Of a stretch of 64,000 bases of DNA, positions 33,350 through 64,000 are shown piece after piece. Position numbers and translations under genes: made by a program. The stretch lies in the NCBI GenBank assembly GCA_025093985.1, contig JACAAK010000001.1, positions 3,410,001 through 3,474,000 of the forward strand, given 5' to 3'. The notes beneath the pieces were generated by a model. That model did not search any database and had not been told where the DNA came from. It saw only the letters and a program-made list of their open reading frames with translations. Within the stretch, counting starts at the first letter, position 1. Each line of letters opens with the position of its first letter. The stretch is from Calvatia gigantea. Taxonomy: Eukaryota; Basidiomycota; Agaricomycetes; Agaricales; Lycoperdaceae.

Positions 33350-35100
33350 GTCTGAGTGACATAGCTCAAAGACTGTGGTGGCTCACTTGGGATTAATCGG
33401 GAAGGGGTTATTATGCATTTTCCCCTTGGCACAGCCGTCGCAAATGCCTTTCTGAGTAGATGGTGCGGGAATTGATGCGATGCCCTCTACGTGCTTTGGA
33501 AGCTCGGAGAGCGTGCGATCCGAAGGGTGTCCCATTCAATGATGCCAATCAGTATAATCAAGTTGGCGTAAAGTCAACGCGACTGGTTGCTCCTTGCTAT
33601 TTTGCAAGACATACGTGTGCACCATATGTACGTTGTTTTTAAACAAACGATGAGGCCAGGCGGTCAATACAGCTTGTCCTGATTTATCACGGATGGTGGT
33701 CCCTTTAACGGTTGCCTCTAGGACATAGCCGTTCCTAAGAATCTGGCCTGAGGACATTAACCGTTCTGTGATTTCTTTAATGTAAAAGACCAGTGCAATA
33801 CTTGAAGTAGCGCTCTTGGACTTTCCCTTGTCTGTCACGTCATGCTGGAAAATCACAGACCCTCGTCCTGTCATTTCATAAATCCGGTTGCCAGCAGCTT
33901 GTATAAGCCCGAAATGGCCCATCTTAACCTCTGCAAAATCAGAGAGATAACCGGTGACATGGTATGATGCTCCAGAATCAAGGAGCCAGTCTGCGTTATT
34001 CACAGAGTGTTTATTCCCTTCTTCTCTACACTTTTGGCACTGAGACAAATCACAGATGTGATATGTGATGATCTGATTAAGATCCTCGTGCTCTTCGTGG
34101 AGTTCTGACCGTAACTTGTCTGAATACTCGTGATCATTCATGGTATATGTAGCATTTATCTTACTTTCCAGCTTAGTTTCACTAGCGGAATAAGCAGAAG
34201 GGGAAGCACCTTGGGTGCGCTTCCAGCATACATTGCAGTTTATAAAGTCTGTACAGCGGTGTCTACGACGAGTCCCTACAGGAGGTGGATGACGCACTAC
34301 ATCTGCATAGGTGCCCCGCTCTCTTCGGCGGCCACCTCGTCGTCCCAACTCAACTTCGGAATCTCCAGGACGTCCCGCTCCGAGGCAGACAGTCCCTGCA
34401 TCTGTATCGTCCCATCCCATCCGTTGATGGGGCTGTACGTCATCCTCTGCATCAGAACAAGAATAGTAGTCAGTAGAAGGTACTGACCCGCACCCTCTGT
34501 CGGAACCATAGTCGGTGTCCGAGTTGTTGTCATCTAAGACCGACTCGAGGACTGACTTGATCTTCTTCGGTGCCTGCTTCTTTTTGAGCGGCTTGGGCTT
34601 CTTGATAATCGCCGGCCTGTTGTACACTGGTGCCAGCCACACGATTGCATCTTCCTCCCTTGTGACAGTGGATGGAGTAGACTCTACATCCATTTCGTCA
34701 AACCACTTCCACATCTCCTCCGAACTCTCGCCCGACGAAGAAGTTGCCTTGAGACGTTCGTCCCACTTCTTCAGTGCGGTAACCTTAGCTTTCACTGAAG
34801 GTTTGCGACAGGTTTTGGGCTCAGGCGCAGTGATGCGCGACACGAGCGGAGTGGCATTGCTGCCAGTGGCGGTGGAGCTAGATGCAATGGGAGGTGTCTT
34901 GGCTCGACGCGTTGCTTCTACAAGGGAACGAGTGGATGGTGGCGGTACAGTTTGTGCCTGCGACACGAAATCCACGTCCTGGATATAGCCGGAGGTGGTG
35001 GCAGCGTTGCCTTGCGTACCTCCCTCCTTTCCCTTTCCTTTTCCTTTTCCTCGGGGGCGCCATCGGCATTTCTTCTTGCCATCGCCTTCTCCTCCAGATG

Positions 35101-35131
<31 letters not shown>

Positions 35132-35239
35132 GGGCTGCTGCTGGGGTTTTTTAGACCCCGAAGGCTGCTGCTTCCCTTGCTGCTGGCGCTGCTGCTGCTG
35201 CTGCTGCTGCCCACCTCCCTGTCATGGAGTGAAGCGCGC
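33350..35239 (-). pseudogene. E4 gag C-terminus, protease and integrase N-terminus
   Basis: Gln-rich tract (35100-35215), basic 'KGKGKGG', 'DVDFVSQAQTVPPPSTRSL', Cys motifs 'CTDFINCNVC' and 'CDLSQCQKCREEGNKH', protease 'WLLDSGASYHVTG' and integrase zinc region 'CDGCAKGKMHNN'. Stops: TGA 35222-35224, 33536-33538 and 33383-33385, each CGA in E2. Confidence 0.88.
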
Positions 35240-35793: not shown

Positions 35794-36349
35794 TGTTGAA
35801 TCTCGCCCCATACCACTATGTTGGTTCAGTCTATTTATAGCTGAAACGGGGTTCGAGTATTTCACCTTCAGAGGGTCGATAATAACAGACCATCACGGAC
35901 TATGTACGCAGTAGTTGTACCGCCCTTCTGGTAGTCGGTTATACCCTCCGCATGGAACATTCTAGTACATGCATCGTACATAGTATGCTCTACTTATGCT
36001 ACTGGTAGTTAGACCTCACCCATATAAGGGTTTAGAGTGCACAGACCAGGGATATTAGTATATATACCCTATGTAGCATTATAGTATGTATGCCCTTTGG
36101 TTACGCCTTTTAGGTAGGCCTTCGGGCTAAGACACTATGTCTTCTCACCTCTATGCTAGCTTCTCTAAGCATCGCTTCCCTTCTCCTCTAGACTCTCTGA
36201 GTACGCTGGTATAAGCAGGACTATGTCCGCTACCACGCACCTCTCCTACTGGACTGTCTCCCGGATGAATACGACTACCCTCCACTGCTGACGCCTACAC
36301 GCTTAGGTAGTGTGAACTTATATTGGGATGTCTACTCGTTCTCTCTACA
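35794..36349 (+). repeat. E5 5' LTR (type B)
   Basis: Begins 'TGTTGAATCTCGCCCC', with TATA-like 'CTATTTATAG' about 40 bases in, and ends 'GTTCTCTCTACA' instead of the usual CAACA. Confidence 0.9.
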
Positions 36350-42007: not shown

Positions 42008-42563
42008 TGTTGAATCTTGCCCCGTACCACTACGTTGGTTCAGTCTATTTATAGCTGAAACGGGGTTCGAGTATTTCACCTTCAGAGGGTCGATAATAAC
42101 GGACCATCACGGACTACGTACGCAGTAGTTGTACTGCCCTTCTGGTAGTCGGTTATACCCTCCGCATGGAACCTTCTAGTACATGCATTGTACATAGTAT
42201 GCTCTACTTATGCTACTGGTAGTTAGACCTCACCCGTATAAGGGTTTAGAGTGCACAGACCAGGGATATTAGTATATATACCCTATGTAGCATTATAGTA
42301 TGTATGCCCTTTGGCTACGCCTTTTAGGTAGGCCTTCGGGCTAAGACACTATGTCTTCTCACCTCTATGCTAGCTTCTCTAAGCATCGCTTCCCTTCTCC
42401 TCTAGACTCTCTGAGTACGCTGGTATAAGCAGGACTATGTCCGCTACCACGCACCTCTCCTACTGGACCATCTCCCGGATGAATACGACTATCCTCCACC
42501 GCTGACGCCTACACGCTTAGGTAGTGTGAACTTATATTGGGATGTCTACTCGTTCTCTCTACA
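42008..42563 (+). repeat. E5 3' LTR (type B)
   Basis: 556 bp, same length as the 5' LTR and differing by scattered substitutions. GTATT follows at 42564-42568. Confidence 0.9.
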
Positions 42564-42776
42564 GTATTGGACTGGTTCGTCCAGTGCTCCAGAGAAATCC
42601 CATCCGGTCCAGGAGCAGTCGTTTAAGGAAATGCACATAAGTGCAGACCGAAGGCGAAGCGACCAGATGGTGTAGTTACCTGTCCCAGTAAGGACGGGAA
42701 GCTGTCCGCTAGGGGTTTGAACAAAGCCCGGCGGAGCAGAGGCCAGTTTAGACATATCTAAGAATGGGGTAAACAC
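42564..42776 (-). pseudogene. E4 gag N-terminus, part 5' of the E5 insertion
   Basis: Frame from 42776, preferred ATG 'MSKLASAPPGFVQTPSGQLP', through 'NYTIWSLRLRSALMCISL' to 'ALDEPVQY', where E5 interrupts. No stop occurs in this piece. Confidence 0.88.
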
Positions 42777-42940
42777 GCGTTAGCATCATGTAGGACTGCA
42801 GTGCGTGATGTACACGTCGCAACATGGGGCAGACTCAGGGATCAAATGGACCAAAGGGCCACCGTCTCCCAGGTTGCGTACGACCGTAGCCTCCTACACT
42901 CTACCAGCGTTGCAAAGCGCGGTTGGAGTGAGCAGTGGTC

Positions 42941-42953: not shown

Positions 42954-43361
42954 TGTTAAGACGAGTACACCACAATAGTTTGCACTAGTGGTGGAGGGGA
43001 GTTGTACTCACTGGGTTTGTTGAGATGTGCATTGTAGACCGTAGCTAGAGGATATCTTAGAGGAATGATGGGCAGAAGGTAGACTGGATTGTCTAAGGAA
43101 TGTACGCATACTACATAGGTCTTATATATCTAGTGTCTCTGGTCTGTGCGCCGTTCTATCTAATACAGGTGAGGTCTTATCTGCCAGTAGCATATACAGA
43201 GCATACTGCGTACATTGTTCTATTTAATAGACCATGACCAGCAACCTAGAGTGCGGTCTAGTACATTGTTTGTTATCTCTCTTCAAGAGTGAAGTACTCA
43301 AGAACCTGTTTCAGCTATAAATAGACTGAACCAACATAGTGGTACGGATCAAGATTCAACA
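42954..43361 (-). repeat. E4 5' LTR (type A)
   Basis: 408 bp, same length as the 3' LTR. TTATG follows at 43362-43366. Confidence 0.9.
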
Positions 43362-43743
43362 TTATGTTCGCATTTTGGATGACAAACTTTACCAAAGTCT
43401 CAAGAAATACAGGAAGAAGAAGTGGCAAGTCCTTTTCCAACAGGACAATGACCCCAAACACACAAGCAAAAAAGCAAAAATGTGGCTTGAAAACAGTGGT
43501 TTAAAGGTTATGGAGTGGCCACCACAGTCCCCAGACCTTAATCCCATTGAACAGCTCTGGACTTATGTCAAAAACAGGCTAGAAGAGTATGAAAACTACC
43601 CTTCCAGCATAACTGAACTCAGAGAAAGGGTAGATATAGAATGGGGCAAAATTCCTGCATCAGTGTGTCAGAATTTGATAGAGAGTATGCCTAGGAGGGT
43701 TCAGGCTGTTTTACAGGCCAAAGGGGGCTATACAAAGTACTAG
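43362..43743 (+). pseudogene. M3 transposase, C-terminal catalytic piece
   Basis: After TTATG: 'VRILDDKLYQSLKKYRKKKW', 'FQQDNDPKHTSKKAKMWL' (second Asp), 'PPQSPDLNPIEQLWTYVKN' (Glu, DD34E) and 'VCQNLIESMPRRVQAVLQAK', stop TAG 43741-43743. The piece is fully open. It is separated from the rest of the gene only by E4 and the earlier insertions. Confidence 0.88.
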
Positions 43744-44105: not shown

Positions 44106-46487
44106 TTATATGTAAAGTGTTCGGGATGTCGAGTTTGAGGTGGCTGACTGCCGCTGATACTCACGAACGAGGTGAGTGCTGATGGCATCGAGATTGTAAT
44201 CCGAGTCAGGGAGGGTGTCGAGAAAGGAAATGCAGGAATCGTAGGAGGACGGGAGTCCGGAAGTGATGGATAGGATAAGGTCATCGTCGCTAACATCTCC
44301 ACCCGCTTCTTTAACTAGGAGAGCCAGGCGTCTGGCACGTCCGATGAATTCCAACATCGTCTCAGTGTAGTTGACGACGGAGAGAGTGGATGGTAGACCG
44401 CCTATGCGAAGTATGTGCTGCAGCAAGCGTAGTCCAAATGATCAATGGGTCGTCATGGGAGCAGTAGTCGAACTGGGACTGAGAAACGTGCAAGATTAGT
44501 TCTGCGCGAGCAAGCGCCTGCTTGTCACGGAACTTTTTCACTTTCTTGGTCCCTTCGGCCCCTCCAGGGTGCTTCTCTGTTCCGTCAACTACGCCGAGGA
44601 GTCCTTTCCTAACCAACATAGCGGTCATGTACACATTCCACTCGTGATAATTGTCATCGGTGAGCTTATCGAAGTAATCTGATGACATGGGTGGCGATGA
44701 TTGGGATTGCGGTGACAAGGGGTATGCATGAGATTCTGCAGCGACGGGGATGACAATAGGGCGAACAAGACGGTCTAGGACGCAGGAAATAGCACCATCC
44801 GGGACCACTTTGTTACTGCACAGTACAAAGATAGGTCAGCATCCTTGTCTCTTAAGTAGTCACAGGGACTTACGGTTGTGTATCTGGTCTAAAGACCCGA
44901 AGTCCCTGTGGCTCCAAGGTCTCCTTCACACGCCGAAAGAGGAAATCACTTGCGAAAAAACCGCCAACCAGAAAAACGGTCTATACAAAGAATAAGAAAC
45001 GCAGTAGCGCACCAACCACCGCTCAGACATATCAGATGCTCACAGAGATATGTTTGCGGGCAGTACGGCACTGGGTCAGGACGCCTTCAACAATGCACTT
45101 GATGGAGGGCTCAAAAAAAGAGGCAATTATCTTTCTATACGAAGCTAAGCTTTTCGGCGGCGAGCAGCTTAGTTAACGCTCACCCATCAAGGCGAAGATG
45201 TCCGCGAATGATATCCAACTTGATGTCCCTGTCGCTCACAGAACCAAACCGAATGTAGTGGGGATCACCTGGATCACGGAAGGCATGTTGTATTGTCTGA
45301 TCGAAATACCGCTTCATGGAGGGAATGTCACCATAAAATTTGGTACCTTTAAGCAGCCCTGGGAGCCGTCGTGAGTGAGCTCAATACTATCATCTACAGT
45401 TCAACGTACCGTCCAAGTATTCCTCGGCAGCCTCTGTCACGAAAATGGAACCTTTGAGATGGCCTATCCATAATACTATCTCCGTATTTCAATCTATGGG
45501 AGTCATTAATGAACTTACATTGGAATTCTGCAATTTCTCTGAAGGTCCTCCCGCCATTCTCGAGTGAATAAGCGCTGATATCTAAAGTTCCCTCACGAGC
45601 ATCAACGACGGTAACGCCATCACCCGTCTGTTGAGAGGAATTGTCAGAGAGTCTTAGCCCAATCCAAACCCGACAATGGCCCACCTGGACGAATTCACTC
45701 ATTAAACCTTTGCCAATGCATCGGTTAAGGCTCGCCTCTCCTTCGGCAATGAATATGAGTTGGTTTTGCCCCCCAGGCTCAATAAGGCCAGCCTTCTCTG
45801 CAGCTTGCTTCATCAAGGCCCGCTGAGCGCCTTCCCAGTTATTGGGATGTGAAAGAATATAATGTATCTCTCGTTCGGCCCAGGGATTAGCCCCAATTTC
45901 AGGATGAACTTGCTGAATGTACTGCTTGGCACAGTCGTTGAGATACCTCAGGAAATCCGATAGGACCTCAACAATTGTCTTGCCGAGCGGCAAAGCCGGA
46001 ATCCCTGGTATAGGACCCATAGTCCGGGGGCGTAGGTGTAATTTGAGCCTGTGATAAGAGATGAGCACTCAAGCATTGTCATAACAATGCAGATTACCAT
46101 TCTGCCTTCCGCCATTCCTTTTCCTCTGCAGTGACATCGATCCCATCCCGCTCCGTTTCAGCGCCAGCAGCACAGACTCGGCCGTTACGGCTATAGTACA
46201 TGACAGAAGGGACCCTCACATTTCCACCGGCTGTTTTTTGTCCTGGAAACCTTCAGCTGAGGATCAGAGCTGCATCAAGTCGTTACCCAGCAGTAGCTCA
46301 ACTTGTGCACGCCCTGAATCTCCGGCTCCTTTCCGGGCTCGAGAATGCTACAAAACTTGTCAATTGCCTTCTGTAAATCACAGGCTCTCGGGGTGATAAA
46401 TTACCTGTATGATATGCTACTGTGGGTGGTGCCAACGTCGAAGGCGAGGAGCAATTTCCGCGGTCCATAATATGGATCTCTCGACAT
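44106..46487 (-). pseudogene. Hsp70-Gag fusion gene H3, frameshifted in Gag
   Basis: ATG at 46485-46487 opens 'MSRDPYYGPRKLLLAFDVGT' with phosphate-1 'DVGTTHSSISY'. Downstream exons carry 'LPLGKTIVEVLSDFLRYLND', 'HPNNWEGAQRALMKQAAEKA', phosphate-2 'VVDAREGTLDISAY' and adenosine site 'TVFLVGGFFASDFLFRR', the only copy with LVGG. After 'VVPDGAISCVLDRLV' comes a linker, then Gag: 'YFDKLTDDNYHEWNVYMTAM', 'ARAELILHVSQSQFDYCS'. A 20-base deletion near 44369, compared with H4, breaks the frame after 'TIHSLRRQLH'; the rest of Gag continues in another frame ('SITSGLPSSYDSCISFLDTL') to the family-typical end at 44106. It is probably a recent pseudogene and is the source of the piece captured by E6. Confidence 0.82.
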
Positions 46488-46928
46488 TATTGGTGGAGGA
46501 GATGGCGCGTCAGCAAGTAATCTTCTTCCCACGGTTTGGTGTTCTTGAAGGGCATGAGGTACGTGGCGGGATGCTGTCATGCTGGGCGCCATAATCGAAA
46601 CGTTTATTGATATATCGCTATGTGATCAGCGACCAGTTGATTGATCATTAAGATGATACCACGGGAAACTCTTGAACAGAAACCCAAAGATCACACCCTC
46701 ATACTCTTGTCATTCTACACCCATTACACGAAAACGCGGCGGGTGTGTGGCTGGGGAAATATATTGTTTTGCGAGAACTTCGAGTTACATTTGTACCGAT
46801 TCTCGAAAAGGCGACAAAAAGGTCGGGGCCGGCCCGTGCCCAGCTCGCCCAAGTTTCCGAGCTTAGCCAGAACACTCCAACATAAGATACATACTAGTCA
46901 ATTGAGCACGACAGTGACTCCCGATGCC
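46488..46928. other. Intergenic H3-H4, no supported gene
   Basis: Upstream of H3 and downstream of H4. 46855-46925 is related to the regions 3' of H5 (49945-50027) and H7 (54650-54760), sharing 'GAGCTTAGCCAG.ACACTCC', a conserved 3' flank of the family. Confidence 0.55.
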
Positions 46929-49363
46929 TCATTTGTGTAGGGCCCGGGGTGTAGAGTCTGAAGTGGTAATTTGCCGTTGATACTCACGAATGAGGTGAGT
47001 GCTGATGGTGTCAAGATTGTAATCCGAGTCGGGGAGGGTGTCGAGAAAGGAAATGCAGGAACTATAGGAGGACGGGAGTCCGGAAGTGATGAATAGAATA
47101 AGATCATCATCGCTGACATCTCCACCCGCTTCTTTAATCAGGAGAGCCAGGCGTCTGGCACGTCCAATGAATTCCAACATCGTCTCACTGTGCTCCAGTC
47201 GGTATTCGTGTAGCCGACGACGGAGAGCGTTGATGGCAGATCGCCTATGCGAAGTATGTGCTGCAGCAAGCGTAGTCCAGATGATCATGGGATCGTCATA
47301 GGAGCAATGGACAAACTGTGGCGGTGAAACATGCAAGATTATTTCTGCACGAGCACGCGCCTGCTTGTCAGCGAACTTTGTCACTTCCTTAATCCCTTCG
47401 GTTCTGCCGGGGCGAGATTCTGTGCCGTCGACAACACCAAGGAGTCCTTCCCTCACCAGATGGGCGGTCATATGTAAATTCCATTCATGATAGTTGTCAT
47501 CAGTGAGCTTATCGAAATGACCAGACGATGCAGGCGGCGGCAGGGGTTGTGACGCTGCAACAACGGTGGTGTCAGGAGTGCGACTGGGAGGAGTGGGAGG
47601 TGGTACAACAACATTAGTCGTGCCGGTAGGGACGCGGATAGGTCGTTGGATGATACTTGAAATAGCGCCATCCGCGACTATCCTTTTTCTACGCAAACCA
47701 AAAGAGGTCAAGGTCATTTTTTTCACAAATTCCAAGGTGCTCACAGATTGATATTTGGTCTCGATACTTGAATCCCATGCTGTTCCAAATCCTCCTTCAC
47801 CCGGTTAAAGAGATAGTCACTTACTACAAAACTGCCAATGAGGAAAACATTCTTTCAAAGAGTGAGAATATGTAAGGGATAATATCTGTGTTAAACCCCT
47901 ACAGAAATAGGCTTTCGAGAAGTATGGCTCTGATTTAGGACACCGTTAACCATACACTCGACCGAGGGTTCAAAAAATGAGGCAATGACCTTCCTGTGAA
48001 GAGCTAAGCTTTTTGTGGATGCAGCCAATAATGAACGCGCACCCGTCAAGGCGAAGCCCCCCTGCATTGATCCCAAATCTGGCGCCTTTGTTGCGGGTGG
48101 AACCAAAGGGAAGGAAGTGGGGATTTTCTGGGTCACGGAAGGCGAATTTTGTCGTCCTGTCGAAACTACGTATCATTTCCGGAATGTCTTCATGGAATTT
48201 AGAGCCTCGGAGGAATTCTGACAACATTGTTCGTGTGATATTCAATATCCAGGATCATTCGACTTACCGTCCAAATACCTCCTAGCAACTTCCGTCACAA
48301 AAATGGAGCCCCTAAAATGGCCTAGGTATGAGGTCGTCTTGGTTGAGCGTTTCGAGTAGATAGAAGCCACCCATGCTCTCACATTGCGGTTCTGCTACTT
48401 TTGTGAAAGTCCTTCCGCCGTCCTCGGAAGCCCATGAACTGATATTCAGATTCCTTTTTCCGGCTTGAATGATAGAGCATGCTTCGCCCCTCTGTTAAAC
48501 GAAAGCCTATTGGCGTCATTCTCTAACATGAAAGTCTTGTTTTACTCACCCCAATCCAGTCACTCTTCAGCCCACTATTGATACATCGATGAAGAGACGC
48601 CTCTCCTTCCGCAATGAAGGCGAGTTGGTTTCCTCTTTCAGGTTTGATGAGACCTGCCCTTTCTGCAGCCTGTTTCATCAGGGTTTGTTGAGGTCCCTCC
48701 CATCCATTGGGATGGGGAAAGATGTAGTGAATTCCCGGTCCACTCCAGAGACTGGTCCCAACTCCTGGATGGACTTCTTGAATATATCGCCTAGCACAGT
48801 CATTGAGGTAGGTCAGGAAGTCCGATAGGACCTCGACTACCGACTTGCTGAGTGGTAGGGGTAGAAGGTGCGCATTTGCCGCGGAATTCGTCGTTTCAGG
48901 TCTCAGATGTAATTTGAACCTATAACAAGAGCTGAGGGTGAGTGCTCGCACAGTGAGGAAACAAAATCCACCATTCCGCTTTCACCCAGTTCTCTTCTTC
49001 AGCGATAATATCTATCCCGTCTCGTTCAGTTTCAGCGCCCGCAGCGCGAACTCGACCGTCCTCGTCATAGTATATGACTGTAGGTATCTTCAAATATCCA
49101 CCTCCTATTTCTTGTCCTGGAAACCTAATTGAATATCAGAACAATATAATGTTGTTGATGCAACAGTAGCTTAACCTATGCACGCCCAAGATTTCTGGTA
49201 CTGTCCCGGGATCAAGGATACTATAGGACTCATTAATTGCCTTTTGGTCAGTCACCGCACACAGGGAATTCCATCACCTGTACGATACACCACTGTGTGC
49301 AGTGCCTACATCGAAGGCGAGGATCAATTTGCGTCCTGAGCCAGAATATGGCTCCCCCAACAT
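46929..49363 (-). CDS. Hsp70-Gag fusion gene H4
   Basis: ATG 49361-49363 ('MLGEPYSGSGRKLILAFDVG'). About nine GT-AG introns. Landmarks in order: phosphate-1 'DVGTAHSGVSY' (second Thr to Ala), 'LPLSKSVVEVLSDFLTYLND', 'HPNGWEGPQQTLMKQAAERA', phosphate-2 'IIQAGKRNLNISSW' (canonical DAGGGTxD lost), 'LSEFLRGSKFHEDIPEMIRS', and 'RLDG' joined over a 49-nt intron to 'KVIASFFEPSVECMVNGV'. The adenosine-site exon is 'NVFLIGSFVVSDYLFNRV'. The last exon (to 46929) starts 'RIVADGAISSII', passes through a Pro/Thr-rich linker and becomes Gag: 'HFDKLTDDNYHEW', 'ARAEIILHVSPPQFVHCS', 'ETMLEFIGRARRLALLIKEA', 'ITSGLPSSYSSCISFLDTL'. It stops before any zinc knuckle or protease. No frame break was seen. Predicted product is roughly 670-690 residues, cytosolic (no signal peptide). 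Confidence 0.82.
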
Positions 49364-50027
49364 ATTCGTGCAAAGAGAGGTCGTGTCTCTAAGGAAGCTT
49401 CTTCCCGCAGCCTGGCGTTTTCAAAGGGCATCAAATGTGCTGCGTGGTAGCCGCAATGATGGGACAAACTCTACTGTTAAGTTATGAAAATTGATTGGGA
49501 AAGCCCACACCTCGTGTTCGAACCTCACTGCGGACTAGACTAACCCGATAAGTTTTGTTTGCTCTTGTTAAACGGTACACTGGCTCGCCACTTTGTCGCT
49601 GCTTCCCTGTGTAGCGCAGTTTTCCATCCGATGTACAGTAGCGTTTCTAGTGGTTATTTAAGGCCTATTGATTCTGACACATTTGGCACACGTCCAGTGT
49701 GGATGCGACCTTTCCACCAAGGATACCACCAAGACTTTTTCATCGCAACATTAGCAACGATTAAGTTCAGTATTCATTTTACAAGTTACAGCCTGTTATT
49801 ATACAAAAAATGGCGAACTGATGTAGTGGATGCATGACCGGGAAGGTGTCTGGTTTTACGACAACTTCAAGTTACGGGTACATTTGTATTGATTCTCCAT
49901 GAGGTGACAAAGAGATCAGGGTAGACCTGTCCTCAACGTTCAACTCTCTCAAATCTCCGAGCTTAGCCAGGACACTCCGGCACAGCATACATGCTAGCCA
50001 AACGAATGAGGTAGTGACTCCGACGGC
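49364..50027. other. Intergenic H4-H5: conserved H4 upstream block
   Basis: 49547-49588 carries a block also found upstream of H5, H6 and H7 ('AAGTTTTGTTTGCTCTTGTT' and 'TACACTGGCTCG'), about 185 bases before the H4 ATG. Further right, 'TCTCCGAGCTTAGCCAGGAC' near 49955 is the shared 3' flank of H5. No gene is supported. Confidence 0.6.
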
Positions 50028-52519
50028 TCACATGTATAGGGCCCGGGGTGTAGAGTGTGAAGTAGTAATTTGCCGCTGATACTCACCAATGAGACGAGCA
50101 CTGACGGCATCAAGATTGTAATCCGAGTCAGGGAGGGTATCGAGGAAAGTGACGCAAGAATCGTAGGAGGACGGGAGTCCAGTGGTGATGGAAAGAATAA
50201 CGTCGTCATCACTAACATCCCCACCGGCTTCTTCGATCAAGAAAGCTATGTGTCGAGCGCGCCCAATGAATGCCGACATCGCTTCGTTGTGCTCGAGGCG
50301 GAGTCTGCGGAGTTGGCGACTGAGGGAGTTGATGGTTACTCGCTTATGCACGGTGTGTGCTGTAGCGATTGCATTCCAAATGAGCGCAGGGTCGTCATAG
50401 GAGCAATGGACGAGTTGTGATGGTGCTACGTGCAAGACTAATTCCGCACGAGCGCGCGCCTTCTTGTCATTGAACTTTTTCACTTGCTTGGGCCCTCCGG
50501 TTCCGCCTGGCTGACTCTCCGTGCCATCAACAACACCAAGGAGTCCCTGCCTAACCAGATGAGCGTTCATATATGTCTTCCATTCGTGATAGTTGTCATC
50601 AGTGAGCTTATCAAAATGACCAGACGATACAGGCAGCGGTGAAGGTTGTGGTGCAGGCAGCAGTGAGGGTTGTGACGCAAGCGGCAGTGAGGATTGTGGT
50701 GCAGGCGGCAGCGAGGGCTGTGGCGCTGCAACAACAGTGATGTCAGAAGTGCGACTGGGAAGGGGTGGTGGCGGTGTGGCAAGGTTGGTTGCGGTCGTAG
50801 GGATGTGGACAGGCCGCTTGAGGATACTTGAGATAGCACCATCTGCGACTACCTTGTTTCTATCCAAACCAAGAGAGTCAGATTCTTTTTTTTTCACGAA
50901 TTTCAAGATACTCACACCTGCGTATCTGGCCTCCATACTTGAATCCCGTGTGGTTTCAAATCCCCCCTCACCCGGCTGAAAAGATAGTCACTTGCCGCAA
51001 AACTGCCAACGAGGAAAACATTCTTCCAAAGAGTGAGAACATGTAAGGATATTCGTTTTAAAATCCCTACAGAGATAGGTTTTCGAGAAGTATAGGTCTG
51101 ACGTAGGACACCATTGACCATACACTCGACTGAAGGTTCAAAGAATGAGGCAATGACCTTTCTGTGAAGGGCTGAGCTGTTTGTGGACGGAGTCAATAAC
51201 GAATGCGCACCCGTCGAGGCGAAGCTTTCCTGCTCTGATCCTGAATTTGGCATCGTTGTCGCGTTCGGAACCAAAGCGGATGAAAATGGGGTCACTTGGA
51301 TCACGAAAGGCAGCTTTTGTCGTTTTGTCGAAATACTGGGTCATTCCCGGAATCTCTCCGTGGAATCTAGAACCTCGGAGGAATTCTGACAAAATCATGG
51401 GTGTGATATACAAAAAGAGGGATCGCTCAACTAACCATTTAAATACCTCTTGGCAGCCTCCGTCACAAGAACGGAACCCCTAAGATGGCCTGGGCGACAT
51501 CATCTTGGTTGAGTGCTTTGAGTAGATAGTAACCATCCGCACTCTCACATTGAGATTCCGCTACTTCTGTGAAAGTCCTTCCACCATCCTCAGAAGCCCA
51601 TGTGTTGATATCCACAGTCCCTTTGCCGGCCTGAATGATAGTACAGCCTTCGTCCCTCTGTTGAACGTATCAGCGTCCTTCTTCAACATGAAAATTACGT
51701 CCTGCTCACTCCAATCCAGTCAACCCCCGATCCACGATCGATACATCGATGAAGAGCAGCCTCTCCCTCCGCAATGAAAGTGAGTTCGTTTCCTGACTCA
51801 GGTTCGAGGAGACCAGCGATCTCTGCAGCCTGTCTCACCAAGGCTCGTTGGGGTCCCTCCCATCCGTTGGGATGCGGGAAGATATAATGAATTCCCGGCG
51901 TATTCCAGAGGGTGGCCCCAGCTCCTGGATGGACTTCTTGAATATATTGCTTGGCACAGTTGTTAAGGTAGATCAAGAAGTCCGATAGGACCTCAACTAC
52001 CGACTTGCCGAGTGGCAGGGGTGGAATTCCTGTTGAATTTGTCATCCCAGGCCTCAGATGTAACTTGAACCTATAACAAGAGCTGAGCACTGAGCACTCA
52101 AACAGTGAGGCAACAAAGTCTACCATTCCGCTTTCACCCAATTCTCTTCTTCAGCGATAATATCCATCCCGTCTCGTTCAGTTTCAGCGCCTGCAGCGCG
52201 AACTCGACCGTCCCTGCTGTAATACATGACCGTAGGTATTTTCGCATTCCCGCCAGCTATTTCTTGTCCTGGGAACCTAATTGAATGCTAGTGATATAAA
52301 GTTGTTAATGTAACAGTAACCTAACTTGTGCACACCCTGGATCTCTGGCACTCTCCCGGGTTTGAGAATGCTGTGGAACTCATTAATTGGCTTTTCGTCG
52401 GTAACTGCAGTCGGGGTAGTCCATCACCTGTATGATACACCACTGTGTGTGGTGCCCACATCGAAGGCGATGAGCAACTTGGGTTCTGCGCCAGAATATG
52501 GTTCCCGTGCCATGCTCAT
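50028..52519 (-). CDS. Hsp70-Gag fusion gene H5 (best-preserved copy)
   Basis: ATG 52517-52519 ('MSMAREPYSG'; a second ATG is two codons on). Exon 1 ends at 52428 after the canonical phosphate-1 loop 'LLIAFDVGTTHSGVSY'. Then come 'GGNAKIPTVMYYSRDGRVRA', 'LPLGKSVVEVLSDFLIYLNN', 'HPNGWEGPQRALVRQAAEIA', 'FIAEGEAALHRC', phosphate-2 'IIQAGKGTVDINTW' and 'VLVTEAAKRYLN'. 'RLDG' is joined over a 49-nt intron to 'KVIASFFEPSVECMVNGV'. The adenosine site is 'NVFLVGSFAASDYLFSRV'. The terminal exon (about 50880-50028) begins 'NKVVADGAISSILKRP', the last helix of an Hsp70 NBD, runs through about 85 residues rich in Pro and Ser with repeated 'PQPSLPPAPQ'-like units, then Gag: 'HFDKLTDDNYHEWKTYMNAH', 'ARAELVLHVAPSQLVHCS', 'SITTGLPSSYDSCVTFLDTL', 'ARLIGEYQRQ'. 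All splice sites examined are GT-AG and no frame break was found. About 690 residues: NBD about 1-415, linker to about 500, Gag to the end. Confidence 0.87.
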
Positions 52520-53468
52520 GCAAGAAGGAGAGGACGTGTCTTGAAGGATGCTTCTTCCTAGTAGTCCTACAGCCCGACGTTTTTAGAGGGCATCAAGTTT
52601 GCTGCGTGGTGGCTGCAATGATGGGACAAAGTCTACTGATTGAAGGTGGTTGCCCAGTCAGCAGGTGACAGGAAGCTCCACCTGATTGGGAAAAGGTCAC
52701 ACGCCTCGTGTTCGAACTCCCTGCATCCTGGACTAACCTGATAAGCTCTGTTTGTTCTTGTTAAATGTACACTGGCTCGTCTTCTTGACCTGCATAAAAT
52801 TTACGACTTGTTGACCGTCAGACAACAGGCACTCAAGTTGGCGATGGATGCTGCTGTTTGGTGCTCGGTGTAGATGGCATTACTATCACGAGCAAACCTG
52901 CTGGGGGACCGAAAATTTCACAGTAGGCGGGCGGTCGGGACAATGACAGTTAGATGTATGTATAGAACTGGACTAATAAAATTTGGTATTTCTAGTAAAA
53001 ATGACTCTGCGGTATAATGCGAGGTTTTACTTGGCGCGAAATGTCGTTGCAGTCAAAAGGGGAATGTCCCCTCAAAGTTGTCAGAGATAAGCTCACCGTG
53101 TGTTGGTCAATTAATTATTAGCCATAAGGTGGTATTTAGATGCTGTAGTATAAAGGACCAATCTCCTCGTGCGTGATACCTTTGCAGGTACCTGAACCAA
53201 CTTCTTAACCGTCACTCTGTCCTCGATATTTCCGGTACACACAATATTCACCGCCAGAGACCTGGAACAATATCTGATCATTGTCCGGTAATTTCTTTCA
53301 TTTCTCCCAGTTTTGTTAATCGCTCTGTATTTCTCGCAAGAATCCCTCTACTGTGCCATAGCTGCAGCCCAGTAGCATAAGAAACCCGTGTCACGGGTAC
53401 GACGAATACAGATCTCCCTCCCCTTCTTCGCACTCGACGGCGCTAACCCCTCGCTCAAATGACCATTC
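52520..53468. other. Intergenic H5-H6: conserved H5 upstream block, then unassigned
   Basis: 52740-52780 is the shared upstream block ('TTGTTCTTGTTAAATGTACA'), about 220 bases before the H5 ATG. From 52850 to 53468 I see no gene. Short matches to sequence around 2080-2130 ('CGCTCAAATGACC' against 'CACTCAAGTGACC') suggest old array intergenic DNA. This segment replaced the 3' half of H6. Confidence 0.5.
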
Positions 53469-54073
53469 TTATAATTCGAAATCTAGAATATATTGCTTGG
53501 CACAGTCGTTGAGGTAGGTCAGGAAGTCCGAAAGGATTTCGACTACCGACTTGCCGAGTGGCAGGGGCGGAAGGTGTGTAACCGCTGTTGAATTCGCTGT
53601 TCCAGACTGCAGATGTAACTTAAACCTATAATAAAGGGCTGAGTGCTGAGTACTCGCACAGGGAGGTAGCAATAAGGTTCACCATTCCGCTTTCACCCAG
53701 TTCTCTTCCTTAGCAATAGCCTCTGTCCCATCTCGTTCAGTTTCAGCGCCCGCAACACGAACTCGACCGTCCTCACTATAATACATGACCGTAGGTATTG
53801 TTGTATTTCCACCGGAAGTTTTTTGCCATGGAAGCCTAGTTGAGTGTGAGGGCGGTATAAGGTTGGTAATGTAAGAGTCGCCTAACCAACGCACGCCCTG
53901 GATGTCCGGTGTCTTCCCGGGATCAAGAATACTATAGGACTCGTTAATTGACTTTGGTCCGTCACCGCACTCGGGGTGGTCCGTCACCTGTACGATACGC
54001 CACTGTGTGTGGTGCCCACATCGAAGGCGATGAGCAACTTGCGTTCTGGGCCGGAATATAGTTCCCATGTCAT
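53469..54073 (-). pseudogene. Truncated Hsp70-Gag family gene H6 (5' exons only)
   Basis: ATG 54071-54073 ('MTWELYSGPERKLLIAFDVG'), phosphate-1 'DVGTTHSGVSY', then 'SILDPGKTPDIQGV', 'GGNTTIPTVMYYSEDGRVRV' and 'LPLGKSVVEILSDFLTYLND'. The similarity ends abruptly after 'CAKQYI' (about 53486) and a stop follows at 53469. The rest of the NBD and the Gag part are missing, so this is a deletion remnant. Confidence 0.85.
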
Positions 54074-54761
54074 ACTCGTGCAAGAAGAGGAGGATGTGCA
54101 GTGTTTCTAAAGAAACTTCTTCCCGCAGTCTGGCGTTTTTAAAGGGCATCAAGTGTGCTGCGTGGTGACTGGCACGATAGGATAAGCTCTACTGTTTATC
54201 AAAAGTGGCCGCCCGGTGACCATGCGAACACCTCATGTTCGAACTTACACTGTCCCGGACTACCCTGACAAGTTTTGTTTGCTCTTGTTAAATGTACACT
54301 GGCTCGCCCCCTTGTCACTGCTTCCATGTGCGCAATCCTCCATCTAATGTACTCAGTGTTATGGTGGTTACTTAGGACCTATTTTGGAGACGTTTGGAGA
54401 GGGGTCGAGACTCGAGAGTGGACGCGACCTTTTCCACTAAGGATACCACCAGGATTTTTGCACGGCAACATCAATACATCAACAACTTAGTTCAGTTTTG
54501 CTTTTACAAGCTAAAGTCCGTTATACAAAAACGTGGCAGACTGGTATGGTGGTGCATGACGGGGAAGGTGTCTGGTTTTACAACAACTTCAAGTTATGAG
54601 TATATCCGTATGAATTCTCTACGAGGCAATGAAAGGTCACCTGCGCTCGGCTCTCTCAGGTTTTTGAGCTTAGCCAGGACACTCCAGCATAATATACATA
54701 TTGGTCAAACGAATGAGGCAGCGACTTCTGAGGCCTCATATGTATAGCGCCGGGGTGTAGA
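54074..54761. other. Intergenic H6-H7: conserved H6 upstream block and H7 3' flank
   Basis: 54268-54306 is the shared upstream block ('AAGTTTTGTTTGCTCTTGTT', 'TGTACACTGGCTCG'), about 195 bases before the H6 ATG. 54655-54690 is the shared 3' flank ('GAGCTTAGCCAGGACACTCC'). No gene. Confidence 0.6.
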
Positions 54762-57155
54762 TTATGAAGTGATAATCTGCCGCTGATACTCACTAATGAG
54801 GCGAGCACCGAAGGCATCAAGATTATAATCTGAGTCGGGAAGGGTGTCGAGGAAAGTAATGTAGGAATTATAGGAGGAGGGGAGTCCAGTGGTAATGGAA
54901 AGAATAACATCCTCATCACTGACATCCCCACCAGCTTCCTTGATTAAGAAAGCCATGTGTCGAGCGCGCCCGATGAATATAGACATGGTTTCGTTATGCT
55001 CGAGGCGAAGTTTGCGGAGTTGACGATGAAGGAAGTTGGTAATGACTCGCTTGCGCACAGCGTGTGCTATAGCGATCGCATTCCAAATGAGCGCGGGGTC
55101 GTCTTGGGAGCAATGGACAAGCTGGGATGGCGAGACATGCGAGATTAACTCCGCACGGGTGCGTGCCTTCTTGTCAGCGAACTTTTTCACTTCCTTGGGC
55201 CCCCTAGTTCCGCCAGGCTGACTCTCCGTGCCGTCAACAACACCAAGGAGCCCTTCCCTCGCCAGATGGGCGGTCATATGTATCTTCCATTCATGATAGT
55301 TGTCATCAGTGAGCTTATCGAAATGACCAGACAGCGCAGGCGGCAGCGAGGGTCGTGACGCTGCAACATCAGTGGTGTCAGGAGCGCGACTGGGAGGAGG
55401 GGGCGATGGCGGTGCAATAATGTCGGTCGTCCTGGCAGGGGCGTGGACAGATCGTTTGAGGAGACTCGAAATGACACCATCTGCGACTTTTGTGTCTCTA
55501 TACAAACCAAGAGGGTCAGGGTAATTTTTTCGCGGATATGAAGGTACTCATCTGTACCTATCTAGCCTCAACACTTGAATCCCGTGCGGTTTCAAATCCT
55601 CGCTCACTCGGTTGAAGAAATAGTCATGTGCCGCAAAACTGCCAACAAGGAACACAGTCTTTCAAAGAGTGAGAACATGTAAGATTGATATCCGTGTTAA
55701 AACCCCTACAGAGATATGCTTTTGAGAAGTGTGGCTCCGATTTAGGATACCGTTAACCAGACACTCAGCTGAGGGTTCAAAGAATGAGGCAATGACCCCT
55801 CTGTGAAAGAGCTGAGCTTTTTGTGGACTGAGCCAATGATGAATGCGCACCCGTCGAGGCGAAGTCTTCCTGCATAGATCCTAAATCCAGGATCTCTGTC
55901 ATGTGCGGAACCAAAGTGGACGAGGTAGGGGCCATGTGGATCGCAGAAGGCAGGTTTGGTCGTCCTGTCGAAATACTGTATCATTTCCGGAATGTTCCTA
56001 TGAAATTCAGAGCCTTGGAGGAATTCTGAAAAAACCATGAGCGTGATACTTAATAGGATCGTTCAACTTACCGTTCAAGTACTTCCTAGCAGTCTCCGTC
56101 ACAAAATTGGAGCCCCTCGGGTGACCTAGGTGTGGAGCCGCCTTGGTCAGTGGTCGCTTCGAATAAATAGAAATAATCCATGCTCTCACACTGTGGTTCT
56201 GCCACTTCTTCAAAAGTCCTTCCTCCATCCCCAGAAGCCCATGCACTGATATCCAGAGTCTCTTCGCCAGCTTGAATGATATAGCACCCTTCGCGCCTCT
56301 GTTGAACGAGACTTATTAGTGTCCTTCTCTAAATCGAGAGCCATGTTTTGGTTTTGCTCACCCCAATCCAGCCACCCACTAGCCCACGATCGATACATCG
56401 ATGAAGATACGCCTCTCCTTCCGCAATGAAAGTGAGTTGGTTTCCTCCCTCGGGTTTGATGAGACTGGCTCTTTCTGCGGCCTGTCTCATCAAGGCTTGT
56501 TCAGGTCCATCCCATCCATTGGGATGAGAGAAAATGTAGTGAATTCCCGGCTCATTCCAAGTGGTCCCAACTCCCGGACGATCTTGAATATACTGTCTGG
56601 TACAGTCATTGAGGTAGATCAGGAAGTCCGATAAGACCTCAACTACCGACTTGCCGAGTGGCAAGGGTGGAAGGTGTGTAACTGCCGTTGATTTTATCGT
56701 CCCAGGCCTCAGATGTAACTTGAACCTATCTTGGGGCTGAGCACTCGCACAGTGAGGCAGCAATAGGATTCACCGTTCCACTTTCACCCAGTTCTCTTCT
56801 GCAGCGAGAATATCTATCTCGTAGCGTTCCGTTTTAGCGCCCGCCGCGCGAACCCGACCGTCTTCGCTATAGTACATGACCGTAGGTATCTTTGCATCTA
56901 GCTTTTGTAGTCCTGGGAACCTAATTGGATGTCAGAGCGATATGGAGTTGTTAATGCAGCAGCCTAACTGCACTTCCAGGATCTCTGGTACTTTCCAGGG
57001 ATCGAGAATACTATAGAACTCGTTAATTGCCTTTTCACCGGTCACACTACGCTTGAGATAATTCATCACCTGTACGATACACAACTGTGTGTGATGCCCA
57101 CATCGAAGGCAAGGAGCAATTTGCGTTCTGGGCCGCGATATGGTTCCCACGGCAT
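54762..57155 (-). CDS. Hsp70-Gag fusion gene H7
   Basis: ATG 57153-57155 ('MPWEPYRGPERKLLLAFDVG'). Phosphate-1 is 'DVGITHSCVSY', with Thr to Ile at a nucleotide-contacting position. Next come 'AKIPTVMYYSEDGRVRAAGA', 'LPLGKSVVEVLSDFLIYLND', 'HPNGWDGPEQALMRQAAERA', phosphate-2 'IIQAGEETLDISAW', 'FLQGSEFHRNIPEMIQYF', 'RLDG' plus a 49-nt intron, and 'ASFFEPSAECLVNGI'. The adenosine site is 'TVFLVGSFAAHDYFFNRV'. The terminal exon starts 'TKVADGVISSLLKR', has a Pro-rich linker and Gag ('HFDKLTDDNYHEWKIHMTAH', 'ARAELISHVSPSQLVHCS' with an intervening 'RT', 'SITTGLPSSYNSYITFLDTL'), ending at 54762. No frame break was seen, so it may be expressed. The altered nucleotide loops argue against normal ATPase activity. 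Confidence 0.8.
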
Positions 57156-57563: not shown

Positions 57564-60500
57564 CTAATTCACCACCTGTGACTTAAGTGCTCCAGAAGCA
57601 ACATTCCCTCCAGCAACAGGGCGAGCAAGGCGGTTCTCTCCAGCATTGACAATGAAGCTGGCAATCGGGAAACCGTCCGAGTTACGGAAAGCTATGGAAA
57701 TAAGATAGGTGGGGGGGAAGGAAATGAGAAGTCGATGAGCAATGTAGCTGCACTAGGACACTTACAAACATCCCTCATGGAGTAATAGGTTGCGTTGAGA
57801 ATCTTTGGTGAAACTTCAAGCGTGAAGAACCCCCTGAAGAAACCCTCACTCCACTGCAAATCAATGTTGTCCTTGACGAATAGGGAGGAGAAGTTGACAG
57901 CCGACTTGAAGTCACTACCCTCAAATGGTGCAGTTGTCGAGGTTACTCCAGTACCGGCGAATTCGACCCCGATCGCACCACGCCCAGTGGCAGGATCATA
58001 TCTATGTATATTCTCGACATTCTTCAATATACTGGCGCTCTAGACAGGACTCACCTCATTGTGTCATTCACGTCTGGGAACAAAAAGAAGTGCCTGCGAT
58101 GGGTGGTTGACAGAGGTCGAAAATTCGAATTACTCACGGGCAAGGTCAGACACCCAATTGGCATGGCTATCGCCGGACAGTATCGCGGTATTGCTGATTT
58201 TGTTGTTGTAGAGATGATCGAGGATACGGTTTCTGTTGGCGCGGTAGCCGTCCCAGGCGTCCTAAATTACGACCGCACTTGAGTTTACGCCTCAGTTAAA
58301 GTGACCGAATACTTACGAAGTCGAGGACTGTAGGTGTAAACCGTTGGTTAGTAACGGTCGATAATCTTATCGGACTACCACTCACATCCTCCCTCGTCGA
58401 GTTCGGTGAACACAATTTGCTGACTGGTTTTGTTGAGGAATCGCAACATTAGTCAGTTTGTTCTTTACTTACCCGATCACACGCCAGACCGCTCCGCGGG
58501 ACTTGGATTCGGAAAGGGTATCCATTAGCCCTTCGCCAAGGGATTATCAAGGGAACGACAGGATAATACAAGGAATACAAACACTTCTCTTGGTTGGCCC
58601 CCATCAAAGATCGACGAGGCTCATTCGCGAGGGAGGCAACAACTGCCAATGACACCAGTTCCATTTACGTTCACGGAAAAACAGACAGAGGATGGGCTTA
58701 CAATCTGAAATGGCACGTGGATCGCACTTCATTACTAGGGTTCTGGAGTGGTGAAGACTCACCAGAATTATACCCGACCTGGCATGGAAAGCGCATTCCT
58801 GTGAGCCTTCATTCGACGGGATTGGTATCAAAACGCACATCGGTTACATCACGGTCGTATTGGCCTAAAATGCGCACATTCAGAAAGAAGGTGAGCCCTT
58901 GTTTCCGATTTGACTCACGAGTATCGAGCATGGATAGGTCGAGCAACTTTCCAATCTGGAAGTTTCTCCAGATACGAAGCTGGTCTTTTGCATCGACCTG
59001 CCGAATAGGCATCCATTCGTGGTAGGCACGGACCCCAGCGAATTTCCTGTCCGTGAAGCATGCACCAGAAGGCGAAAACGTGCATCCCGCGGCTGTGTCG
59101 TTAGAATCAGTTGTGCCTGCTTTCCATGCATTATCTGCGATCTATTCACAAAGTTGAGCTTAAAATCAGAACAGAAGAACATGGAACTGACCTCATGGTC
59201 GTCCTATGGTTATAGCGGGCGAAATCACATCATTAGTGACATAAACCACTTCCTGCGGATCACGTACCCTTGTAGCCGGAGGAGAAACGGCGGGATTTTG
59301 TCAGGACGAGTTCCATGACCGTTTGGAGTAAAATAAACTCACCAAACAGTGATCCAGGGAGCGGACTGGTGGGCGAATTGCAGATCGGGATCAGACCTGT
59401 ATTGTTCCAACCGCTGTCGATAATCGTGGATAGTTGCCAACTCTCGACCGAGGACAACGCGACCAATGCTTGCTCCACCACCAGTACTCTCGTACATCTA
59501 CTTCAAGCTCACAAGGCCGCTGAGATATGGGATAAAATCACTACTCACGTAGTCTCCAAGATGAACGAAGACATCAGCTGAAGTGTTGTGTGCTGCATAC
59601 CCATAAGCATTGAACCACCCTACTCCGCAAGTGAGTGAATCTGCTTTATTGCGTCAAGAATGCTTACCAGCTTGGAACTGGGAACAGGAGAATACGGCGA
59701 GCGTCAAAGGCTTCCCTCCGTTCACATGTTCGGCAGGTGCTGGAAGGGACAGCATCAGACCTGCGCCGACTGTTGTATTTCAACCAACTCACTATTGCTG
59801 CTCGCCAAAGTCCGGGTCTTTCCAATGGGGCTAACCGTGGAAGGGTTGGTACAATCCGCGAATTGGTAAAAGTATTTGGTATCCGGCTTCAAACCAGTGG
59901 CCTCAACTTTGACAGTGAAATCGACATCATAACTAGTAAAGGCTTCTCCGGAGTCCACACTTCTGCCCGAAAGATCGCCCGTGGTCCCGATCTTGAACGA
60001 GACACACACAGGTACACTCTGGTCAGGCAATTGACCATTGCCGCTGGGGAGGGGAACAGCACGGGTCCAAAGGATGATTGAGTTGTCGAGTGGGTCGCCC
60101 TGATGTAATCAGACATCAGATCTCAAATCTCAAAGTTAGCATTTGGAAGTTCTTCTTGCGTACACTCGCAACTAAAAACAAGACATAAGTATCCAAAGCT
60201 GCGGAATCGTCCTAGGAACTGACCAGAATGTGTGAAGTTAACTCCCGAGCTCCATACGACGGGCGCCTTGTTTGATTTCAGAGACAATCAGCAATACTGC
60301 TGGTGATACCCTTACATTGCTGAAATCGGAGGTATAGAAACCGGGATACGGCGCATCTTTGAAACGGGAGGCATCGACTGTATCCCGTCGAGTCGGTTGA
60401 TGGTTCCTGCGGCTTATTGCAACAGTGTCATGGGCGAACTTCAGACTACCATCACTCCTGATTTCTATCAAGTGACGAGATTGAGGACTCACTCGTGGTT

Positions 60501-62184: not shown

Positions 62185-64000
62185 CTAAAACCCAACGACC
62201 TGTGATTTGAGTGCCCCCGAAAGGACGTGTCCCCCAGCAACAGGTCGAGCAAGATGATTTTCCCCGGCATTGACAATGAAGCTGGCGATTGGGAAACCGT
62301 CCAAGTTGCGAGAAGCTACAAACAAAACGGAAGCAATGAGAAGGCAATATGGGGCGAAAAAACACTCACTAACGTCCCTCATGGAATAGTATGTCGCATT
62401 GAGAGTTTTTGGGGAAACCTCAAGTGTGAGAATCCCCTGAAGAAACCTTCACTCCACTGGAGATCGATGTTGTCCCTGACATATACGGAAGATACGTTCG
62501 TAGAGGCCCTAAAGTCACTGATATTGAACTGGTCTGCGTCGACGTCACACCAGTTCCAGCGAATTCTACGCCAATTGCGCCGCGCCCACTTGCGGGATTA
62601 TATCTGTGTGTATTTCTTTGTCGCATTCTGGGTTTCGGACGCGTTTCATGACACTTACGTCATTATGTCATTTGCATCTGGGGAAAAATCGAGAACGCTG
62701 AACATTGTTTAACATAAGCAAAAGCTCGAGACACCCACGAGCAAGGTCGGACACCCAGTTGGCGTGACTGTCACCTGCTAATATGACCGTGTTGTCAATA
62801 TTATTGTGATAGAGGTGATCAAGAACACGGTTTCTGTTGGAACGGTATCCATTCCACTCGTCCTAAACGGATACCATGTCACATTGAATTGTACAAAAAA
62901 CTGGATTCTTACCCAATTGATGACTAGAAGTAGGGACAGTTTGAATTGGTTCAAAGACCCGCACAAATTGCACTTACCTGCTCCAAGGGAGACTTGAGTG
63001 AAAAGAACCTGTTGACTGCAATCACATTGAGGACCTGCAAAATGAACCCCATAATAGTTTTACTGAGATACTTACCCGATCACGCGCCAGACGGCTCTTC
63101 GGGATTTGGACCCGGAAAGGGTATCCCTGAGCCCTGGATTCCGGTCCCGTCAGAATGACCCCGAGACGGAGGAAGCTGCACTAACATTTCTCCTGATTGG
63201 GCCCCATTAAGGACCGGTTAGGCACATCAACGAGAGATACAACCACTACAATGGTCACCAAGATTATCGTATCCAAGATGTAAAGTATACTCACGTTCTA
63301 AAACAATGTGAAAAATACTCTTAGCTACCGAAATTGTAGGGAAGACTCACCGCGATTGTACACAACCTACAAATAAAGGCAGAACTCTGTGAGTCGCCAC
63401 TGCGTATACTCTAGTATGATATAACAACTCACATCAGTTATATCACGGTCATAATGGCCTGAAAATAGATCAGCAAACCGGTACACCCTACAGAGTTAAA
63501 ATCAACTTACGAGTATCAAGCATTGACAGGTCAAGTAACTTTCCAATCTTGAAGTTCCTCCAAATGCGGAGCTGGTCTTTTGCATTGACCTGACGGATAG
63601 GCATCCATTCATAGTAGGCACGGACACCAGCGAATTTTCTGTCCGTGAAACATGCACCAGAAGGTGAAAATGTACATCCCGCGGCTGTGTCATTTGAATC
63701 GCTCGTGCCCGCTTTCCATCCATTGTTTGCAATCTGTTACGAGAACGTGAGTTAAAGGGTCAGAATTAAGCACCGCTCACCAACCTTATGATCGTCCTAT
63801 AAAGCCATGAGATGAATTAATTGATGAGCAGAATTCTTGATGAATTTCCTTAAGAAATACACACCCTCCTAACCAGACAGACAACATGACGTTTCATCAG
63901 GCCAAGTTCTAGGATATAGAAGGCCGAAACTCACCAAACAGTAATCCAAGGAGCAGACTGGTGAGCGAACTAGAGATCAGGATCGGACCTACATTGCCCT
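62185..64000 (-). pseudogene. P2: decayed PhoD-like phosphatase copy (5' end outside window)
   Basis: Stop 62185-62187 after 'ARPVAGGHVLSGALKSQ'. Exons parallel P1: 'APWITVW', 'GWKAGTSDSNDTAAGCTF', 'YEWMPIRQVNAKDQLRIWRN', 'GDSHANWVSDLA', 'GRGAIGVEFAGTGVTST', 'NIDLQWSEGFFRGF'. Damage: TAG at 63970-63972 in 'DPDL*FAHQ' where P1 has Gln; the DDHE motif reads DDHK (about 63790); one base is missing near 62535 (after 'TQTSSIS') and another near 62430 (before 'LTLEVSPK'), giving a premature TGA at 62420-62422. The remainder lies to the right of 64000. Confidence 0.85.

Follow-up and report, generated by a model that had tools for sequence, protein, structure and literature searches.

A 64,000-nucleotide stretch of the 46-Mb genome of Calvatia gigantea (contig C1:3410001-3474000; hereafter the window) contains much of a cluster of genes in which the nucleotide-binding domain (NBD) of an Hsp70-like protein is fused to a Gag capsid of copia type. 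The evidence largely establishes a host gene family, as an earlier note on this DNA had proposed, encoding a fungal Hsp70-like protein whose C-terminal region was exchanged for a copia-type capsid without zinc knuckle. The product is, for the most part securely, a degenerate NBD of ~400 residues followed by a proline-rich linker and then by an almost complete capsid domain of copia type. Natural selection has kept the capsid part, which suggests that the fungus put the capsid of a jumping gene to its own use.

Gene models were built by exon-level matching and then by a purpose-written splice-aware alignment. Nine NBD-Gag copies, F1 to F9, were found in one cluster, C1:3395519-3467158 (Table 1). 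The window contains five of them whole and part of a sixth, F4, which is represented by its 5' part, the NBD; the last exon of F4 lies almost wholly to the left of the window. 4/9 copies (F3, F7, F8 and F9) are fully open from start to stop, each with nine GT-AG introns whose phases and order are identical among the four; intron 9 of F9 has a shifted donor, GTACAG. The remaining 5/9 have lesions or uncertain models. The earlier note had described five fused copies in positions 44106-57155, with a common junction and a common 3' end, and had considered three of them, F7, F8 and F9, to be open. The architecture, junction and 3' end were recovered and the spliced models of the three copies are indeed open with GT-AG introns, but the count is nine rather than five, and F5 is a pseudogene lying outside that interval. 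A subtelomeric position of the cluster received no support, as TTAGGG arrays were found only near the starts of contigs C3 and C56.

The two parts of the protein meet inside one exon. The spliced models confirm the earlier description of an NBD that runs to the ADGAI helix and is followed in the same exon by a proline-rich linker and Gag: the last exon of the fused copies passes from the final NBD helix through the linker into a nearly whole copia-type capsid. In N2 (C1:3362 kb), a non-fused copy, the last NBD helix reads VADGAISGVLDRPVR and is followed by RSRVTRSAFGV, and N1 and N3 are similar. The corresponding exon of F8 reads VADGAISSILKRPVH and then enters the linker. The distance from helix to Gag in F3-F9 is 38-72 amino acids (aa), of which 16-35% are proline, and the linker frame is preserved despite length changes in F3, F6, F7, F8 and F9. 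A search for the canonical Hsp70-like C-terminal region gave no match of at least 26 bits in C1:3380001-3474000 (94 kb), while three positive controls were recovered, down to 42% identity. Because the controls were recovered and the tail was not, the sequence indicates that the Hsp70-like C-terminal region was replaced by Gag, not interrupted by it, in agreement with the position that the earlier note had given to Gag. That note had also reported the absence of long terminal repeats (LTRs). This holds for F6-F9, where a repeat scan of window positions 36000-64000 revealed no flanking LTR pair among the 20 of 28 repeat families listed.

F1 and F2 have, by eye, an apparent second, partial last NBD exon before the linker (L030:7202-7716 and L031:1310-1692), and F2 has two junction matches. 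The repeated exon seems to be a trace of recombination between paralogues, and it is a possible relic of the origin or spread of the fusion.

The C-terminal part was identified as a copia-type capsid by comparison with profiles and with capsid sequences of the Protein Data Bank. PF14223 scored above its curated cut-off in 4/4 last-exon open reading frames (ORFs) of the interval, with E from 4e-10 to 4e-23 (F7, 4.3e-23; F8, 3e-21; F9, 5e-19; F6, 4.2e-10, where only the 5' half of Gag lies within the matched ORF), so the UBN2-type assignment stands. F8 Gag alone aligned to residues 13-179 of the 187-residue Drosophila Copia capsid 8s41 (E 3.1e-5), a profile of six fused-type rows only matched the same capsid at E 5.2e-10, and a profile that mixed 8 rows of transposable element (TE) type with others, 15 in all, matched Copia capsid 8vvw at E 2.2e-25. 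The resemblance among the fused Gags is more than chance. F8 Gag as a query found, among the best candidates scored, the other eight copies at 63-82% identity (and, at 58%, a 33-aa piece of F2). Two decayed relatives followed at 45-46%, and a further 39 matches had 24-31%. Eight TE-type Gags share 35 invariant columns, and at 21 of these at least 90% of 13 fused-type rows have the same residue. A CCHC zinc knuckle is present in 8/8 TE-type Gags from the protein database (P0005-P0012) versus 0/4 of the database proteins P0001-P0004. None was seen in the fused models and knuckle queries had no match of at least 26 bits in the 94 kb, so Gag stops before the knuckle as the earlier note had stated.

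Selection was examined separately for Gag and NBD, after codons with a gap, frameshift or stop had been dropped. The ratio of nonsynonymous to synonymous substitution rates (dN/dS) in Gag was 0.12-0.31 by NG86 in 36/36 pairs, and 0.12-0.57 by YN00. Neutral simulation of 9 pairs chosen by hand, with only codons having a single difference, led to rejection of neutrality in 9/9, each with fewer replacement changes than simulated (p 0.0005-0.003). Clearly, the Gag part is under the purifying selection that the earlier note had anticipated, and the constraint includes the open copies F7, F8 and F9. Gag dN/dS was below that of the NBD in 6/8 pairs, with a bootstrap of at least 0.95 in only 2/8, F8-F9 (1.00) and F7-F9 (0.96). 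NBD dN/dS was 0.34-0.43 in the close fused pairs (F7-F8, F7-F9, F8-F9 and F1-F2) versus 0.05-0.18 in seven non-fused pairs, some of which have saturated dS. The NBD of close fused pairs is relaxed relative to that of non-fused pairs, yet it is still under some purifying selection.

The NBDs of F1-F9 are clearly homologous to those of N1-N3, and we take this Hsp70-like NBD, along with N1-N3, the copies D1-D5 on C56 and copy E on C77, to be of HSPA12 type. A profile of non-fused NBDs aligned colinearly but weakly with Hsc70 (2v7z; E 0.018), and N2 matched NCBIfam HscA at E 0.0069, far under its cut-off. Pfam reported no Hsp70 family for F8 or N2, and the genome profile search gave no PF00012 match anywhere in the cluster. 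A second cluster of non-fused Hsp70-like genes with similar exon structure was observed at C56:1959741-1987695 (L047, L048 and L050-L052).

The ATP-binding loops differ between fused and non-fused copies. The phosphate-2 motif DxGGGT, aligned to DLGGGT of Hsc70 through matches that are colinear but weak (E 0.13 and 0.018), is kept in 0/9 fused copies; the middle glycine is replaced by K, E or H, and the aspartate is lost in 4/9. DAGGGT is kept in 9/10 of the non-fused copies that cover it, namely N1-N3, D1-D5 and E, including D4, whose model is interrupted at other places by a frameshift and a stop. The tenth, pseudogene N4, reads WAGG followed by a stop. The adenosine loop VGG is found in the same 9/10 non-fused copies versus 3/9 fused copies, with VGS or IGS in the other 6/9; N4 thus lacks both loops. 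The losses in the fused copies are not independent cases, and one ancestral change may explain phosphate-2. Phosphate-1 (DxGTTxS) is recognisable in 9/9 fused copies with residues altered in 6. Because the phosphate-2 DAGGGT is broken in 9/9 fused copies, the fused NBD is probably a pseudo-ATPase, dead as an enzyme. The chaperone ATPase attached to a capsid that the earlier note had envisaged was rejected on the same ground as the likely state of the protein.

The fused Gags are related to a small group of database proteins. F1-F9 and P0001-P0004 form one Gag clade (100/98), separate from 11 TE-type rows that include one autonomous copia Gag of this genome. The clade has two subfamilies, one with F1, F2, P0001 and P0003, the other with F3-F9, P0002 and P0004. 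P0001 and P0003 share with the fused copies a junction sequence of the same kind and a proline-rich linker, and P0001-P0004 come, we infer, from other species. P0005, from Leucocoprinus birnbaumii, is the only Gag relative bearing an organism name; like the short introns, it points to a basidiomycete. P0005-P0012 are gag-only proteins, 8/8 of which end in an aromatic residue (AF, TF, AW or VW) and 7/8 of which lie on longest contigs of 1.0-1.4 kb. No relatives were found in viral contigs.

Among the Gags compared, the fused Gag is nearest to gag-only, LTR-like elements. Two decayed units, on C5 and C12, consist of a short, CCHC-bearing Gag flanked by LTR-like direct repeats of ~170 nt with 87-90% identity. 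This repeat gave 14 genomic matches, and target-site duplications of the two elements were not evident. Units of this type, without pol inside, lie at L032:4920-6261 and L033:4325-6512; within the latter, the C12 unit is interrupted by an insertion with 217-bp inverted ends (98%) at L033:5091-5952. These sequences suggest that the donor of Gag was likely a gag-only element. The suggestion is a weak one because a decayed pol-like stretch adjoins the C5 unit and because the protein searches for Gag relatives were length-limited, which placed long Gag-Pol proteins outside their range. The TR-GAG elements of plants are gag-only, non-autonomous LTR elements. They resemble a possible donor in the arrangement of C5 and C12 and in the gag-only, CCHC-bearing P0005-P0012, and the fungal units together with P0005-P0012 are perhaps their fungal counterpart. 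Gag-only elements differ from the fused family in being mobile, in not being host genes and in keeping the knuckle.

The history of the family was traced in both parts of the gene. In the NBD tree, a clade of F1-F9 alone was rejected by the approximately unbiased test (p-AU 0.0017); when N4 is added, a weakly supported branch (47/72) separates these copies from the others. Since N4 retains a fused-type exon start, ILRHPTHGP, across a frameshift, it was apparently once fused and has since lost its Gag. In many pairs the Gag distance is below the NBD distance (F3-F8, dS 0.77 vs 1.49), and the 3' half of Gag in F6 and F7 is 85-92% identical per window, versus 40-70% in NBD windows. Because of these smaller Gag distances and the common 3' half of F6 and F7, the sequences are best fitted by one fusion, followed by local duplication in which neighbouring copies exchanged Gag tails. 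Repeated independent fusion at the same point is unlikely.

What the genome itself records is the domain architecture, a Gag under selection that has lost its knuckle, a broken ATP loop, and duplication with decay. The mechanism that we consider most likely, though tentatively and by analogy with Drt2 and p22, is capsid interference, in which the fused protein would act as a trans-dominant restriction factor against copia-type particles. The gene would be expressed, and its Gag part would keep the capsid fold and self-association and so co-assemble with the Gag of copia-type or gag-only elements. The particle would then be poisoned or stalled, because the protein has no RNA-binding knuckle and carries a bulky head. 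Capsid interference is preferred because the capsid core is kept while the knuckle and the ATP loop are lost, because the copies undergo birth and death (4/9 open, the others damaged or doubtful), and because the surroundings are rich in copia sequence.

Several observations weigh against capsid interference. More than half of the fused copies (5/9) are damaged or doubtful. No intact target came to light: the only close element Gags found in this genome, those of C5 and C12, are decayed and at 45-46% identity, and other copia Gags are at 31% or less, both among the matches listed; the latter are perhaps too distant for co-assembly. Two TE-invariant Gag columns are altered in every fused-type row, and the NBDs of F1-F9 without N4 do not form a clade, which obliges one to count N4 as a former fused copy. 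Furthermore, restriction factors are often under positive selection, and purifying selection alone was seen here, at pairwise resolution.

A close rival, although on balance somewhat unlikely, is that Gag serves as an oligomerisation module: it would gather NBD-like heads into an Arc-like particle or a multivalent scaffold, for some host process that has nothing to do with transposons. Such a role is consistent with a Gag that is under purifying selection and has a conserved capsid core but no RNA-binding knuckle, and with the tighter constraint on Gag than on NBD in F8-F9 and F7-F9. The head may matter too, because the NBD of the close fused pairs is also under some purifying selection. However, a scaffold has no known partner or cellular role here, copies that arise and die so rapidly are less usual among scaffold genes, and the excess constraint on Gag is confined to 6/8 pairs, few of them with high bootstrap.

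It is less probable still that the family is a by-product in decay, a chance fusion spread by tandem duplication with most or all copies near loss and little function. Damaged or doubtful copies, two NBD fragments, the probable ex-fused pseudogene N4, the relaxed NBD of close fused pairs and the ATP loop broken in 9/9 would all fit this reading. It conflicts with the clear constraint on Gag, open F7, F8 and F9 included, with the frame held through linkers of 38-72 aa in five copies, and with a Gag clade whose two subfamilies hold four database proteins. Rather improbable is a reading in which shells or arrays free of RNA form by self-assembly of the fused protein and display an Hsp70 domain that is a pseudo-ATPase, the dead NBD serving as a partner-binding switch. 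Capsid assembly would then be run by a head of Hsp70 fold, a new class of chaperone-fold/capsid machine beyond a simple truncated-Gag inhibitor. That retrotransposons simply inserted next to or within Hsp70-like genes, as the amount of copia sequence in the region might suggest, is extremely unlikely and was ruled out because the junction lies at the same place within one exon without LTR or Pol, the Gag clade is separate from the 11 TE-type rows compared, and no C-terminus was interrupted, its canonical exons not being found in the 94 kb.

Domesticated capsids are already known; the NBD-Gag architecture appears to be new. Arc, PEG10, Fv1 and other domesticated capsids of animals resemble the fused family in that a Gag was turned into a host gene, and they are of Ty3/gypsy or retroviral origin. 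To our knowledge no domesticated capsid carries an Hsp70-type domain. The fungal HSPA12-type proteins (N1-N3, D1-D5 and E) share the NBD up to the ADGAI helix, and N1-N3 share the exon structure, but they keep DAGGGT and the canonical C-terminal region and have no Gag. The Drosophila Copia capsid (8vvw, 8s41) is homologous to fused Gag over nearly the whole capsid domain, but it belongs to a transposon protein, and the zinc knuckle of 8vvw is present in the alignment. The Copia capsid paper is PMC11835246, in the accessible part of which the text '8VVW' does not occur.

The nearest functional parallels are found in yeast. DRT2 of Saccharomyces cerevisiae is a domesticated Ty1' GAG restriction factor for which gene conversion has been reported too (PMC10951436). 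As described there, DRT2 resembles the fused family as a Ty1-type capsid fragment serving as a fungal host gene, with structural variation and gene conversion at the locus. It differs in consisting of the capsid C-terminal domain, whereas in the fused family, with its nine copies, a nearly whole capsid forms the C-terminal part of an Hsp70-like gene rich in introns. Restriction was demonstrated for DRT2 and is predicted for the fused family. The Ty1 copy-number-control factor p22/p18 is likewise a truncated Ty1-type Gag acting on capsid assembly, as predicted here, but the element itself encodes it and it lacks any foreign domain (PMC8458377, PMC4599808).

The earlier note knew of no described Hsp70-Gag protein. 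None turned up in the openly licensed PubMed Central literature, judged by titles and abstract openings, and a search without positive control, which scored 7988 candidates, found no full-length fused protein of 370-1176 aa with an E of 10 or less. A multi-copy, spliced family in which an Hsp70-like head precedes a copia-type capsid would give domesticated capsids a new architecture. As open and decayed copies, non-fused sisters and decayed related elements are found in one genome, capsid domestication could be tested here step by step.

Table 1. Fused copies and related fragments. Positions without a contig name are those of the window; the earlier label is that of the earlier note.
Feature	Earlier label	Position	Strand	Last exon	Phosphate-2	Phosphate-1 change	State
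F1		C1:3395519-3398395	+		DAGHYT		model uncertain; extra introns required to avoid stops before Gag
F2		C1:3399639-3402307	+		DAGHRT	GTA	one frameshift, in Gag
F3		C1:3405867-3408309	-		NTREGI		open NBD-linker-Gag copy
F4		C1:3409336-3411602 (window 1-1602)	-	C1:3409336-3410061	DAGEGT	D to E	degenerate; 1 frameshift; NBD without part of exons 3-4
F5	H2	2198-4549	-	from 3007 downward; Gag matches at 2216-2777	DAGEGT	D to E	pseudogene; spliced model with 10 frameshifts, 1 stop
F6	H3	44106-46487	-	44106-44815	DAREGT	Gly after S lost	one frameshift in Gag near 44365
F7	H4	46929-49363	-	46929-47688	QAGKRN	GTA	intact; 0 frameshifts, 0 stops
F8	H5	50028-52519	-	50028-50859; NKVVADGAI helix and Pro-rich linker, then almost all of a copia-type capsid domain up to the stop	QAGKGT		intact; 10 exons, nine GT-AG introns, 672 aa
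F9	H7	54762-57155	-	54762-55497	QAGEET	GIT	open to its own stop
W53	H6	53487-54073	-				5' fragment of an NBD copy, first exons only, no Gag
W21		21789-22254	-				fragment of an NBD copy (exons 3-4); sequence nearly the same as F6
N4		C1:3380048					pseudogene without Gag, same cluster

Other repeats and mobile-type sequences were observed in the window. Two long regions on the minus strand, 9038-16735 and 30242-35221, contain Gag-like and Pol-like ORFs with few stops and were assigned to copia type from motifs; the Gag-like ORF at 15968-16735 appears unlike fused Gag. LTR-like direct repeats at 35794-36299 and 42008-42513 are 97-98% identical and 6.2 kb apart, and a copia Gag-like fragment lies outside this pair at 42546-42779. 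A transposase ORF, which from its motifs we take to be of Tc1/mariner type, was found on the plus strand at 43330-43743, ~400 bp from the 3' end of F6. Upstream of F9, a 234-nt direct repeat (86%) is present at 58913-59146 and 63505-63738.

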